From Limisphaerales bacterium (GTDB lineage Bacteria > Verrucomicrobiota > Verrucomicrobiia > Limisphaerales > SXTU01), in contig WRPG01000061.1 of the NCBI GenBank assembly GCA_009773355.1, positions 1 through 48,815 of the forward strand: 48,815 nt of DNA. Direction: 5' to 3'. Position 1 is the first letter of the stretch; every line of letters begins with the position of its first letter. Below are positions 31,181 to 39,900 of this stretch, piece by piece. The position numbers and the translations under genes were made by a program. The notes under the pieces were generated by a model. That model worked only from the letters and a program-made list of their open reading frames with translations. It was not told the origin of the DNA and searched no databases.

Positions 31181-31216
31181 GGCCATCGGCCATCGGCCAT
31201 TGGCTTTTGGCTATGC
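31181..31216. repeat. Heptamer repeat cluster, downstream side of the four-helix gene
   Basis: Five consecutive heptamers GGCCATC-GGCCATC-GGCCATT-GGCTTTT-GGCTATG are seen. The TAG stop of the four-helix gene is formed by the last unit (minus strand CTA). The unit is the same degenerate motif as in 31791-32120. Confidence 0.8.
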
Positions 31217-31744
31217 CACCGCCTCGCCCCGCGCCGCCCGTGCCTCCGGTGTGTCGTAGAGCGGATGCTCCGGCCTCAGGCCGCGCAGGAAATTCAGCCG
31301 GAACTCCGTTGCCTTGTCCGCCACCGCGCGCCGCTCCTTCACCTCTGGCGTCAAATGCCGCTTGCCCTGCACCGGCCCGCCCTCGATGGACCCCGTCCAT
31401 GCCGTGAGCTGCTTCGCGCACGACTCCGCCAGCGCCCGGATGCGCGCGAGTTCCCGCGCGACTGGCTTCATCTTCGTCCGGTTCACCACCACCGCCATCA
31501 TCGAGCGCACCTCGCCCGCCGAACCGCGGGCGATGCCGAGGAACTGCGCCAGCTCCGCCGTCGTTGTGCGCTCGAACCCTTCCGCGATGTTGTTCGACAC
31601 CGAGAGCGCCGCGCGGTCGAGCTGGTTGCGGAAGCCCGGCGAGAACGGGCAGCCCGGAGCCTCCAGCACATCCAGCACCGCGTTGTAAAGCCGCGCCGCC
31701 TCCTGCCACGCCGGCAGCTCCTCGAACTTCTGATACTTGGCCAT
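31211..31744 (-). CDS. Four-helix bundle protein (S23/23S rRNA intervening-protein family)
   Basis: Starting at 31744 (MAKYQKFEELPAWQEA), the 177-residue protein shows the S23 pattern: FEELPAWQEAARLYNAV, NQLDRAALSVSNNIAEGFER and LAQFLGIARGSAGEVRSM. This is a helical bundle related to proteins encoded in 23S rRNA intervening sequences and to the Avd accessory protein of diversity-generating retroelements. The C-terminal ~60 residues (KRHLTPEVKERRAVADK...) extend beyond the standard ~120-residue fold. The gene is enclosed by heptamer repeat clusters on both sides. No reverse transcriptase or rRNA is present, so the role is unknown. Confidence 0.88.
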   Translation of the reverse strand: MAKYQKFEELPAWQEAARLYNAVLDVLEAPGCPFSPGFRNQLDRAALSVSNNIAEGFERTTTAELAQFLGIARGSAGEVRSMMAVVVNRTKMKPVARELARIRALAESCAKQLTAWTGSIEGGPVQGKRHLTPEVKERRAVADKATEFRLNFLRGLRPEHPLYDTPEARAARGEAVA

Positions 31745-31790
31745 GGGATTTTTTGGTTGTGGGTGTTTCAGCTCAGTCTGCCGGCCCTCG

Positions 31791-32120
31791 GTTATTGGCA
31801 ATCGGCTATCGGCTATGCGGAACTTTATGCCTCCCTCCCTCCCGCCTTCAATCGCCAATCACCGATAGCCAATCGCCAACCCTGCCCTCGTTCGCCCCAC
31901 CACCGCCCACCGCCATCGGCGATTGGCAATCCTTGATTGGCTATCGCTCCCCTGAAACACACGCGCGCCCCCTCGGCCATTGGCCATCGCCCGCCGTCCC
32001 TCGGACATCGGCCATCGCCGATTGGCGATTCTCCTCGCACCCTGGCCAGAAACCGCACCCAGCCCCCCCATTCTCAACTGCCTCCTCGGCTATTGGCTAT
32101 CGTCCATCGGCTATTCGCTC
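31791..32120. repeat. Array of degenerate heptamer clusters in alternating orientation
   Basis: Six clusters are visible at about 31794-31818, 31848-31880, 31911-31947, 31972-31992, 31999-32032 and 32084-32118. Each has three to five units of a 7-base motif near TCGGCTA (variants ATTGGCA, ATCGGCT, TTGGCGA), and neighbouring clusters are often inverted. The first two could pair into a stem of about 16 bases with few mismatches. No gene is supported in this stretch, which precedes the four-helix gene start. Confidence 0.75.
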
Positions 32121-32470: not shown

Positions 32471-33439
32471 GTGCCAAGACCAACCAAAACGCGCAAACCA
32501 CGCGCCCTTTACGCCTCGCCACCCCCGCCACCGCCGAATGGCCGGCCGCTGGCTGACCTCCACGCCACGCCGCTACCCACCGTCCCATTTGTTCTCCGCG
32601 AGGACGGCACCATTGCGGTCACCGAGGACGCCCCGGTTATCGAGCAGCCCAAGTCCGCCCCGCCTTCGCCGCCCCGGCTCGCCTTCCGCGATGACCAGCG
32701 CAACCTCTGGCTCTACCACGGCAACTGCCTCGAACTTCTCGACGCCATCGCCGCCAAGTATCCCGAGGGCCGCTTCGACTGCATCTTTGCCGACCCGCCC
32801 TACTTCCTCTCCAACGGCGGCATCTCCTGCCACGCCGGACGCATGGTGAAGGTGGACAAGGGCGACTGGGACAAATCCCGCGGCCCGGAGCTGAACCACG
32901 AGTTCAACCTCGAATGGCTCCGCCGCTGCCAGCGCGTCCTCAAGCCCGACGGCACCCTCTGGGTCTCCGGCACACAGCATGTCATCTTTTCCATCGGCTT
33001 CGCCCTGCAACAGCTCGGGTTCAAAATCCTCAACGACATCACTTGGGAGAAACCGAACCCGCCGCCCAATCTCTCTTGCCGCTATTTCACGCATTCTACG
33101 GAGACCGTGCTGTGGGCCGCGAAGAGCGAGAAGAGCAAACACCTTTTCAACTACCAAGAAATGAAAAGTGTCACAGGAAAACAGATGAAATCCGTCTGGC
33201 GGTTCCCCCCCCCCCCCCCCCCCCCCCCCGTGGAGTTGATTGAGCGATGCATTCTCGCTTCCACAAATCCCGGCGGCTTGGTTCTCGATCCGTTTCTTGG
33301 CGGCGGCACGACTGCTGTCGCCTGCCTTCGCCAAAAGCGCGGCTGCGTCGGCATCGAACTCGACGAAGCGCATACAAACCTCTCGATCAAACGAATCAAG
33401 TGGGAAGCCGAACAGAAGGAAGGAGAACTGTTCGCGTGA
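32471..33439 (+). CDS. DpnA-like beta-class adenine-N6 DNA methyltransferase (GATC type) with poly-C tract
   Basis: The 322-residue protein from a GTG start has a ~70-residue proline-rich N-terminal extension, then a beta-class arrangement: target-binding motif IV DPPY (108-111) in FADPPYFLSNGGIS, followed by VDKGDWDK, NLSCRYFTHSTETVLWA and motif I DPFLGGGTT (273-281). These strings match M2.DpnII (DpnA) type enzymes that methylate adenine in GATC, including single-stranded DNA. Between them, residues 246-253 are eight prolines encoded by 25 C residues, where the family normally has a GKHPTQKP-like loop. The stop overlaps the GTG of the next gene (GTGA), indicating coupling to a nuclease. Specificity for GATC is inferred from family resemblance and the upstream GATC cluster. 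Confidence 0.88.
   Translation: MPRPTKTRKPRALYASPPPPPPNGRPLADLHATPLPTVPFVLREDGTIAVTEDAPVIEQPKSAPPSPPRLAFRDDQRNLWLYHGNCLELLDAIAAKYPEGRFDCIFADPPYFLSNGGISCHAGRMVKVDKGDWDKSRGPELNHEFNLEWLRRCQRVLKPDGTLWVSGTQHVIFSIGFALQQLGFKILNDITWEKPNPPPNLSCRYFTHSTETVLWAAKSEKSKHLFNYQEMKSVTGKQMKSVWRFPPPPPPPPVELIERCILASTNPGGLVLDPFLGGGTTAVACLRQKRGCVGIELDEAHTNLSIKRIKWEAEQKEGELFA
33205..33229. repeat. 25-nt poly-C tract inside the methyltransferase gene
   Basis: Twenty-five consecutive C residues give eight in-frame Pro codons after Phe. Adding or removing one C brings an in-frame stop (TGA at 33241 or 33237) within 15 bases. It may be a phase-variable contingency tract or an assembly or sequencing artefact that replaced the normal loop sequence. 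Confidence 0.9.
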
Positions 33440-33972
33440 AAGAGAAAGGATTTGGCGGTGCAAACACTTTGACCGGACTCGATTTCGAGCGCGAGGTTGA
33501 CTTCCAAGACTTGCTCACCGAGAAGCCGGGCTACGAGATCAAACCTGTCATGGGAAAAGCTGGCAAGGGTGTCTTCTTCAAGGGGAAACTCGTCGCCCGT
33601 TGCTTCCGTAAGAACGACTTCTACAAGTTTCTCGAAGAGGAAGGAGTGAACTGGAAAGCAAAAGTTTCCAAGCGGCTACTACCGGACGACGCGCTGCTTG
33701 TCATCGTGCGCGAGACCCTCTACATCATCGAAGTGAAGTATCAGCAGGTCGCCGGCTCGGTGGACGAGAAGCTTCAAACCTGTGACTTTAAGCGCAAGCA
33801 ATACCTCAAACTCGTCGCCGGCCTCGGTCTGAAAGTGGAATACGTTTACGTCTTGAACGACTGGTTCAAAGACCCCGCCTATCAGGACACGCTCGACTAC
33901 ATCCACAGCGTGAACTGCCACTACAAGTTCAACTCGCTGCCCTTGGCCTGGCTCGGCTTGCCGGAGTCCTGA
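33436..33972 (+). CDS. PD-(D/E)xK nuclease, probable restriction endonuclease
   Basis: The start is the GTG at 33436 that overlaps the methyltransferase stop. In the 178-residue product, Pro83-Asp84-Asp85 is followed 14 residues later by Glu99-Val-Lys101 (LYIIEVKYQQVAGSVDEKLQ), a canonical PD-ExK active site. The C-terminal half is aromatic and basic (CDFKRKQYLKLV, YVYVLNDWFKD and YIHSVNCHYKFNSLPL). G+C is lower than in flanking genes. I cannot name the subfamily or cleavage site; genetic context points to a GATC-containing site. An upstream in-frame ATG at 33247, inside the methyltransferase gene, gives an arginine-rich extension that looks spurious. Confidence 0.8.
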   Translation: MKEKGFGGANTLTGLDFEREVDFQDLLTEKPGYEIKPVMGKAGKGVFFKGKLVARCFRKNDFYKFLEEEGVNWKAKVSKRLLPDDALLVIVRETLYIIEVKYQQVAGSVDEKLQTCDFKRKQYLKLVAGLGLKVEYVYVLNDWFKDPAYQDTLDYIHSVNCHYKFNSLPLAWLGLPES

Positions 33973-34024
33973 AACCAGAAACAAAGCGGTTGAACGCCAG
34001 ATCTGGCTCGGATCTACTCTTGGA

Positions 34025-34498
34025 GTGCAATTCGAGACCTTCAGTTACCGCCATGCCGAGGAAATCTTGAACTCACATCTGGCAATTCGACGACAGATCA
34101 ATGAGGTGTTGAGTGCTGTGAAAGAAGCTCCGGTCAAACAAGGTCCCGACGGCTTGACCGCCGCACTCATGGCCGCTTTTGAAGGCCGTGGCTGGGCTAA
34201 GGAAGTGCCGGTTTCCAACAACGAAGACCACGAACAACGCTTTGACTTGGCCAAAGACCGGGTTGCTGTTGAAATCGAATTCTCGCGTTACGAGTTTCTC
34301 TACCGAGATTATTTGCGGTTTCTCTCCGCCTACAACGCAGACAAAATTGATGTCGGCGTTCTGATCACCCATGCTGAGTCAGGGCTGTCGCGCACCAAAC
34401 ACCCATCAGGAGCTCCTTCGATGGCTCGGGTGCAAACTGACTTGGTTTGGTTACGGCCTACCATCACCGTTCCCATTTGGGTCATCGCCTTGAAGTAA
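34025..34498 (+). CDS. Compact BglII/BstYI-like restriction endonuclease
   Basis: The 157-residue protein from a GTG start shares BglII landmarks. FSYRHAEEILN near the N-terminus corresponds to BglII's YNHADEILN. RFDLAKDRVAVEIEFSRYEF places Asp74, Glu83 and Glu85 with exactly the D-x8-E spacing of BglII Asp84-Glu93, while BglII Gln95 is replaced by Glu85, giving the E-x-E form of BamHI. IDVGVLITHAESG follows as a core strand. BglII (AGATCT), BstYI (RGATCY) and BamHI (GGATCC) all contain GATC, consistent with protection by the upstream GATC-type methyltransferase. The protein is shorter than BglII (223 residues), lacking much of the C-terminal subdomain. It is lower in G+C than the genome. Confidence 0.8.
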   Translation: MQFETFSYRHAEEILNSHLAIRRQINEVLSAVKEAPVKQGPDGLTAALMAAFEGRGWAKEVPVSNNEDHEQRFDLAKDRVAVEIEFSRYEFLYRDYLRFLSAYNADKIDVGVLITHAESGLSRTKHPSGAPSMARVQTDLVWLRPTITVPIWVIALK

Positions 34499-36985: not shown

Positions 36986-39900
36986 ATGACACAGTCTCGA
37001 CTCGCTTGGTCAAGCCTCGCCGTGATCGCGTGGCTTTCCGTGACCACGCCCGCCTCCGCCGCAGCGCGCAAGATTGATTTCAACCGCGACATCCGCCCGA
37101 TCCTTTCTGACAACTGCTACGCCTGCCACGGGCCGGACGAGAAGGCCCGCAAGGCCAAGCTCCGGCTCGACGTGGCGGAGAGCGCGCTCGCCAAGCACGC
37201 CGTCGTGCCGAAGGACTTGAAGAAGTCCGAGCTGTGGTCGCGGGTCACGACCAAGGACGCCAACGACCTGATGCCCCCGGCGGAATCGAACAAGAAGCCG
37301 CTCAAGCCGGAGCAAGTTGCGCTGCTCAAGCAGTGGATCGAGGAAGGCGCGAACTATCAGGGCCACTGGTCCTTCATCGCGCCGGTGAAGCCAAAGGCGC
37401 CTTCAATCGGCAATCGGCAACCGGCAATCGGCAATCCGATAGACGCCTTCATCGCCGCCAAGCTCGCCGAGAAGAAACTCACGCCCAACGCCGAGGCCAG
37501 CCGCGAAGTCCTCATCCGCCGCGTGAGCTTCGACCTCACCGGCCTGCCGCCCACGCCCGCCGAGGTGGACACCTTCCTCGCCGACAAATCCCCCGACGCC
37601 TACGAGAAGCTCGTGGACCGCGTGCTCAAGTCCCCCCACTACGGCGAGCACATGGGCCGCATCTGGCTCGACGCCGCGCGCTACGGCGACACGCACGGGA
37701 TGCACCTCGACAACGAGCGCTCCATGTGGCCTTACCGCGACTGGGTCGTGCGCGCCTTCAACCGCAACCTGCCTTTCGACCAGTTCACCATCGAGCAGCT
37801 CGCTGGCGATTTGCTTCCCAACCCCACGCAGGACCAGCTCATCGCCACCGGCTTCAACCGCTGCAACGTCACCACCGGCGAGGGCGGCAGCATCAACGAG
37901 GAGTGGATTTTCCGTTACGCCGTGGACCGCACGCAGACCGCCGCCGCCGTGTGGATGGGCCTGACCGCCGGCTGCTGCGTCTGCCACGACCACAAATACG
38001 ACCCGGTCACGATGAAGGATTTTTACTCTATGTATGCCTTCTTCCACAGCAACGCCGACCCGGCCATGGACGGCAACGCGCTGTTCACCGCGCCCATCCT
38101 CAAGCTCACCACACCGGAGCAGCAGAAGAAGCTTGATGACTTCAACGCGCAAATCGCTGCCGTGGACAAGCGCATCAAGGCCGCGCTCGGCAAGGTGGCT
38201 TACACCGACCCGTCCACGCTCAACCCGCCGCCGCCGCTCAAGAAGTTCGACACGACCTGGGTGGACGACGACTTCCCGTCCGGTGCAAAGGTGGAGGCCA
38301 GCGGAGCGTCGGCCAAGGCGCAGTGGGTCACGACTCAGGACGGCAAGGTTCTCGCCGGCAAGCGCGCGTTGAAGCGCACCGACCCGGGCGTGGGCCAGGA
38401 CTTCTTCTCCGAGCTGAAGACGCCGTTCACCATCCCGCCGAACGGCAAGGTCTTCCTCAACGTGTTCCTCGACCCGAAAGATCCGCCGAAGTCGGTGATG
38501 CTCCAGTTCAACACCGGCAACTGGTCGCACCGCGCCGTCTGGGGCGACCTCGACGCGATTGACTTCGGCCAGCGCAATACGAACGAACGCAAACGTCTCG
38601 GCGACCTGCCCAAGCTCGGCGAGTGGGTGAAGCTGGAGTTCGCCGCATCGCAGCTTGGCTTCAAGGCGGGCGACAAGATCAAGGGCCTCGCCTTCACGCT
38701 CTTCCGGGGCACGGTGACTTGGGACAAGGTCGGCATCACCGGAGAGAGCAACCCGTCGAAGGATCCGAACGAATCGCTCGCCATCTGGCTCAAGGAAAAC
38801 CAGGGCAAGGCGCTCACGACTGTCCCCGACGACGTGAAGCGCCTCTTCCGCTCCGTGAAGCCGGAGGACCGCAAGCCCGAGGAGACGAAGCGGCTGCACG
38901 AGTATTACTTCGAGTTCGTCTGCAACACGACGCGCCCCGCCTTCGCCAAGCTGCACGGGGAGAAAGACCCGATTGCCAAGGCCCGCGATGACTTCGACAA
39001 GGCCATCCCGGCGACCTTCATCTGGAAGGATTTGGAGAAGCCGCGCGACAGCTTCGTGATGGTGCGCGGCCAATACAACAAGCCCGGCCAGCAGGTCTGG
39101 CCGAACGTCCCCGCCGTGCTCCCGCCGCTGCCCAAGTCCGGCACGACCAACCGCCTCGACTTCGCCAAGTGGCTCGTCAGCCCGCAGCACCCGCTGACGT
39201 CGCGCGTGGCGGTGAACCGCTTCTGGCAGCAGCTCTTCGGCACCGGCCTCGTGAAGACCGCCTCCGACTTCGGCGCGCAAGGCGAGACGCCGTCGCACCC
39301 CGAGCTGCTCGACTGGCTGGCGGTCACGTTCCGCGAGCAGGGCTGGGACGTGAAGCAGTTCATGAAGCTGCTCGTGACCTCCGCGACCTACCGGCAGGAC
39401 TCGAAGGCCACGCCGCAGAAGATTGCCGCCGACCCGGAGAACCGCCTTTACGCGCGCGGCCCGCGTTTCCGCCTCGACGCCGAGCAGGTCCGCGACAACG
39501 CGCTGGCCGTGAGCGGCCTGCTCGTCCCGACCATCGGCGGCAAGGGCGTGCGCACCTATCAGCCCGACAACATCTGGGAGCCTGTGGCCTACTCCGGCAG
39601 CAACACCAAGACCTACAAGCGCGACGACGGCGACGCGCTCTGGCGGCGCAGCCTCTACACCTTCATCAAGCGCACCGCGCCCGCGCCGAGCATGACGACC
39701 TTCGACGCGCCGAGCCGCGAGCAGTCCTGCGTGCGCCGCGAGCGCAGCAACACGCCGCTCCAGGCGCTCGTGCTGATGAACGACGTGCAGCACTTCGAGG
39801 CCGCGCGCGCGTTCGCGCAGCGCATGTTGAAGGAGGGCGGCAGCCACGCCGAGGCCCGGCTCGCCTGGGGCTTCCGCCTCGCCACCGCCCGCCCGCCCAC

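Follow-up and report, generated by a model that had tools for sequence, protein, structure and literature searches.

The window, i.e., the whole 48,815-nucleotide stretch of DNA analysed here, contains a gene of the S23 family bordered by clusters of a seven-nucleotide repeat. The gene and the repeat clusters lie at the following positions (strand is given for the gene only):

31211–31744, minus strand: S23 (23S rRNA-IVP family) gene encoding a four-helix bundle protein of 177 aa, matched by PF05635, TIGR02436 and PDB 2gsc
31181–31216: 3' heptamer arm, consisting of GGCCATC GGCCATC GGCCATT and degenerate units that hold the stop codon (from repeat counts and the orthologous loci L190 and L197)
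31790–31817: 5' cluster 1, the closest to the start codon (from tandem-heptamer counts, as are all the 5' clusters)
31850–31877: 5' cluster 2, the sole inverted one, for which clusters 1 and 3 are pairing partners and the 3' arm a weak one (also from pairing)
31911–31945: 5' cluster 3 (also from pairing)
31975–31988: 5' cluster 4
32003–32030: 5' cluster 5
32088–32115: 5' cluster 6, the outermost

The S23 coding sequence runs from 31744 to 31211. That it is a genuine S23-type gene, as the first-pass annotation had proposed, is evidenced by the match to PF05635 (E 3.9e-19) and by a second family match, TIGR02436 (‘four helix bundle protein’). Sequence comparison identified a Xanthomonas protein (PDB 2gsc, E 6.5e-9) as a structural relative; the S23 profile also matched 2rld, and both entries contain five chains. 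PF05635 is the only family found on the enclosed gene, which does not encode a REP-associated tyrosine transposase, and nuclease, transposase and catalytic domains are absent from S23. The window copy encodes an S23-family protein, as the intervening sequences (IVS) of rRNA do, but it adjoins protein genes and is not located inside a 23S rRNA gene.

Avd of diversity-generating retroelements is a member of the S23/four-helix bundle superfamily. Unlike in those retroelements, none of the genes tested around the window S23 gene (25.9–36.4 kb of the window) carries a reverse-transcriptase domain, and the Avd/retroelement association suggested earlier was therefore not seen. PADLOC returned no match for S23, for which a role in a defence system was consequently dropped, and the phage search yielded no S23 match either. 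In eight relatives, the gene located downstream of the window S23 gene is preceded by neither an S23 gene nor a period-7 array.

A BglII-type restriction-modification set, which includes an N6/N4 methylase (PF01555), a PD-(D/E)XK-like ORF and a BglII-family endonuclease (PF09195), adjoins the S23 region at 32471–34498. Its presence suggests that a horizontally acquired island lies beside the S23 region. The C-terminal half of the methylase gene contains a run of about 24 C residues (33206–33229), corresponding to eight prolines; it is either an error of assembly or a tract subject to phase variation.

The heptamer unit surrounding the window S23 gene is GGCNATY. When one mismatch at most is allowed, 23 two-unit tandem matches are found in the window, against 1.4 expected, and 18 of the 23 fall within 31181–32115. 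Exact tandem junctions number 8, compared with 0.02 in a third-order Markov control. The 3' cluster proper covers 31181–31201, and degenerate units extend it to 31216. The TAG stop codon of S23 (31213–31211) falls within one of these degenerate units, in line with the initial observation that the 3' cluster supplies the stop codon. The six upstream clusters reported at that stage were all located (31790–32115); the description of many clusters as inverted was overstated, as only one of the six upstream (31850–31877) is inverted relative to the rest. Residues 31851–31877 pair with 31918–31944 (85%), and residues 31862–31879 pair with 31795–31812 (89%). In contrast, the 3' arm is a direct rather than an inverted copy of the nearest 5' cluster (best direct score 26, best inverted score 15), and in the predicted fold the 5' clusters pair with each other and not with the 3' arm. 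The window copy is best explained as an untidy, rearranged member of its class, in which extra heptamer hairpins are stacked on the 5' side. A solo GGCAATC array is also present in the window at 37409–37436, away from S23 genes.

Three-unit matches of the GGCNATY type occur 63 times in the source genome, in about 40 arrays, and the reversed control pattern gave none. Most arrays are homogeneous (GGCAATC, three to four units), and many are found within coding sequences. The genome contains eight S23-family matches, seven of them above the family cut-off, and GGCNATY clusters lie near one of the eight only; the unit thus occurs mostly away from S23 genes. A search restricted to GGCNATY in this genome implied that there is no link to S23, and it was a sequence-neutral detector, which reports any period-7 tandem array, that then revealed the link.

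Runs of three to four GGCAATC heptamers (L014-L043, L352-L359) are embedded in conserved coding genes, where they occupy variable loops, leaders or termini. For instance, orthologues of a DUF1549-like gene carry GGCCATC, GGCAATC, GCATCCA or GCAGCCA heptamers at one common spot. Clean insertion into coding genes was rejected as an explanation of solo arrays, since one and the same variable loop holds differing heptamers in orthologues.

The survey took in about 200 relatives. Many S23 genes in related genomes have period-7 arrays directly beside them, the sequence of which differs at each locus. In a first set of 101 S23 genes, 49 period-7 arrays were found within 500 bp (0.49/kb), compared with 0.048/kb at a distance of 2–6 kb, while near arrays of periods 6, 8 and 9 numbered 5, 6 and 2, respectively. 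An independent set, made up of 80 loci picked by the S23 protein alone, gave 33 near (0.387/kb) and 9 far (0.018/kb) period-7 arrays; among near arrays, periods 5, 6, 8 and 10 were not represented, and period 9 was found once. Period-7 arrays are accordingly 10–20 fold enriched near S23 genes relative to the 2–6 kb interval. These counts are not independent events, because most loci come from draft genomes related at the order or phylum level; a few loci (e.g., L213 and L264) are common to both sets under different identifiers, and a few members of the first set, L111 and neighbouring loci, had been fetched for their arrays. The contig profile search relied on a narrow S23 alignment, and hence the set is weighted towards one subfamily and towards Verrucomicrobiota and Planctomycetota. 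The heptamer flanks of S23 genes in related genomes, which the first-pass annotation had proposed as a check, are thus strongly supported, and heptamers are far from being equally common away from S23 genes. The association it had described holds; the single repeat sequence does not, since the heptamer is specific to the locus and to the S23 subfamily.

In most cases, the repeats on the two sides of the gene are complementary. Inverted flanks scoring at least 18 were found for 78% of 177 S23 genes, versus 7% when flanks were paired across loci, 2.3% when the test was moved 2 kb outwards at the same loci and 2.6% for 578 other ORFs. We defined 140 elements by strong inverted flanks (loci L103-L292 and the window). 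Seven is the best arm period in 117 of the 140, and arm self-match is 0.60 at lag 7, compared with 0.27–0.32 at other lags. A typical cassette, the median length of which is about 480 bp, consists of an arm of about five tandem heptamers (median arm length 37 nt), the S23 gene and a complementary arm. The 5' arm is located a short way upstream of the S23 start codon, and 59% of cassettes start no more than 30 nt past the end of the upstream ORF. In 99% of 102 cases, the two arms of an element are a better match for one another than for same-subfamily arms elsewhere. The L111 cassette folds into a long terminal stem (z -5.8), whereas in the window copy, with its inverted score of 15, the stem enclosing the ORF is poor. 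The first reading of the locus was correct as to the flanking repeats and overlooked their normal form, i.e., a single pair of inverted arms enclosing the gene. Among the roles it had offered for the repeats, that of a structured RNA is favoured by the complementarity of the arms and by stems that fold far better than shuffled sequences.

It is extremely improbable that simple-sequence heptamers lie near S23 genes by coincidence, with no functional link. Such a reading could draw on the source genome, where one S23-family match in eight has GGCNATY clusters and some 40 arrays lie elsewhere, but it is already contradicted by a period-specific enrichment seen in two sets, by the frequency of inverted arms and by the GGCNATY unit that orthologues share.

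Arm sequence tracks the S23 subfamily and not the genome. Arm composition and the similarity of the S23 proteins are correlated (Mantel r 0.52; the maximum of 300 permutations was 0.165), and arm likeness is 0.22 between members of the same subfamily in different genomes, compared with 0.036 between different subfamilies in one genome (p 1.6e-25). The closest relatives of the window S23 protein, encoded at L190 (82% identical) and L197 (80% identical), come from other families of the order. Both loci carry GGCNATY units on both sides of S23, reading GATNGCC on the S23 sense strand from the stop codon onward. The GGCNATY unit is found with window-type S23 genes from three bacterial families.

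At one operon junction, S23 cassettes as well as heptamer hairpins lacking S23 appear and disappear between genomes. The junction between two VWA-type (Bat-like) genes was compared in ten congeneric genomes, and its contents vary. The two genes overlap with no insert in G000, G001 and G003; about 80–120 bp of complementary heptamers without S23 are present in G004, G007, G002 and G006; a 35-bp remnant is found in G009; and an S23 cassette with GATTGCC/GGCAATC arms occupies the junction in G005 and G010. G004 and G005 are sisters (100/100) yet differ at this site, and G010 clusters with G009 and G007 in the tree. Similarly, the livK-livH junction holds an S23 cassette in five genomes and a plain short spacer in others. 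Target-site duplications did not exceed the chance level at cassettes.

The arms of the S23 element at the Bat junction correspond to the solo array found throughout the genus, GGCAATC x4. This identity, together with the abundance of S23-less arrays and hairpins, even at a junction that holds S23 in other genomes, would fit an arrangement in which heptamer hairpins are an independent, self-expanding class of repeats and S23 cassettes land in them, the arms being targets. We consider this unlikely. Under it, the arms would not be expected to follow the S23 subfamily across genomes, nor the two arms of a locus to match in detail, nor one unit to accompany window-type genes in three families.

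The set examined was extended to other phyla through plasmid records, which provided 20 loci (17 from Cyanobacteriota and one each from Gemmatirosa, Riemerella and Azospirillum). Strong inverted flanks were found at 55% of the 20, whereas the controls gave 3% (flanks paired across loci) and 5% (shifted positions). Such cassettes are a frequent setting for S23 genes in Verrucomicrobiota, Planctomycetota, Cyanobacteriota and, by single members, other phyla. The Azospirillum lipoferum S23 gene is located inside 23S rRNA (LSU rRNA 1777-4975 of L351). Its stem, TCAGAGGACGGATGACAGAGGACGGAGGACAGAAAG, is composed of five heptamers, the complement of which is present on the other side, and the fold is strong (z -10.5). 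In Coxiella, the IVS features a 28-bp terminal stem and tandem GACAGAT heptamers before the S23p start, the number of which varies by strain, and is excised by RNase III (PMC4990558). On the basis of the A. lipoferum heptamer stem and the Coxiella features, operonic S23 elements and rRNA IVS share one anatomy, and the connection between S23 and rRNA IVS that had been raised from the window alone is favoured. As S23 cassettes occur in protein operons too, the rRNA IVS seems to be a single instance of a far broader class of inserts. No paper linking operonic S23 heptamer elements to rRNA IVS was found in the literature searched.

The origin and function of both 23S rRNA IVS and the S23 protein have been a standing question for decades. 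The elements described here resemble the IVS with an S23p ORF known from Coxiella, Leptospira and Brucella (PMC4990558) in that the S23 ORF is in the loop, complementary termini form the stem, heptamers lie on the 5' side, the ORF reads in the same sense as the host transcript and the sizes are close (428 nt versus a median of 480). The A. lipoferum locus ties the two directly. In contrast to IVS, the elements are found between protein genes and fall into many families, each with heptamers of another sequence; RNase III excision is known for the Coxiella IVS.

On balance, the window feature is probably an IVS-type S23 element located outside rRNA, the arms of which would pair into an RNA stem, probably recognised by S23. 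In the proposed mechanism, the arms would act as RNA, the host transcript folding so that a long stem closes off a loop that carries the S23 ORF. This stem may spare the host from the insert, either through RNase III cleavage, as in rRNA, or by plain looping-out. A pentameric S23 protein would recognise its own heptamer stem, perhaps with one 7-nt unit per subunit, an idea prompted solely by the arm length of about five units and the five chains in both solved entries. S23 may further promote the spread or upkeep of its own hairpins, and candidate routes to new copies include reverse transcription, hairpin recombination, or replication slippage with strand switching. Stem binding by S23, RNase III cleavage in mRNA and S23-aided spread are inferences. 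Counting against the IVS-type reading are the poor hairpin of the window copy, the lack of target-site duplications at cassettes, the lack of a catalytic domain in S23 and the S23-less arrays common in the genus.

More tentatively, and with somewhat less than even confidence, most bacterial S23 genes might be the protein part of widespread hairpin elements built of 7-nt units, in which each subfamily recognises and propagates its own heptamer (with arms of about five units, possibly one for each subunit of the pentamer). The rRNA IVS, gene-less hairpins and orphan heptamers would then all be products of one system. If S23 genes generally live in heptamer-armed operon hairpins, rRNA IVS would be one landing place of a general element, and a candidate cause would be available for heptamer repeats described without one in several phyla. 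It predicts directly that an S23 protein should bind the heptamer stem that goes with it.

The orientation and composition of the elements bear on a regulatory alternative, in which the arms are regulatory RNA and S23 binds the stem around its own ORF, controlling translation of its own gene or of the host operon, mobility being incidental. In 68 elements S23 reads in the same direction as both neighbours, against 5 in which it is antisense to both, and the 5' arm closely precedes the start codon. On the S23 sense strand, 89% of elements have a purine-rich 5' arm and 91% have one with a G-over-C skew; such an asymmetry hints that one strand of the RNA is recognised. We do not press the strand bias, because genes between same-strand neighbours are usually sense regardless, and autoregulation alone would leave the presence/absence pattern, the S23-less hairpins and the location in an rRNA loop unexplained. 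We regard this alternative as distinctly unlikely.

A further possibility, very unlikely in our judgement, is a DNA transposon-like unit, with the arms as terminal inverted repeats, a recombinase supplied by the host or by an unlinked gene, and S23 as a DNA-binding accessory. The parallel is provided by REP/RAYT (PMC2817692), in which a gene lies between inverted copies of a repeat, the repeat also occurs without the gene, and repeat and protein co-vary. As in that system, inverted repeats flank the S23 gene and are also dispersed alone, a trait evident for the class and weak in the window copy; occurrence is likewise patchy. However, RAYT is a tyrosine transposase, whereas S23 is a small four-helix bundle without a catalytic domain, and the repeats here are tandem heptamers forming arms of variable length. 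The lack of target-site duplications also argues against such a unit.

TAACTGA-type heptamers of Beggiatoaceae, Cyanobacteria and Bacteroidetes (PMC4679880) are similar in being intergenic tandem heptamers, often located just before start codons, which are also found inside ORFs and are patchily distributed over distant lineages. They differ in that no S23 gene or pairing of inverted arms was described for them, and S23 does not occur in the main text of that paper (PMC4679880).

At some of the cyanobacterial plasmid loci (L293, L300, L348 and L294), S23 is found either within CRISPR operons, in the orders cas6-S23-cas4 and cas10-S23-cmr3, or between the genes for ribonucleotide reductase subunits.
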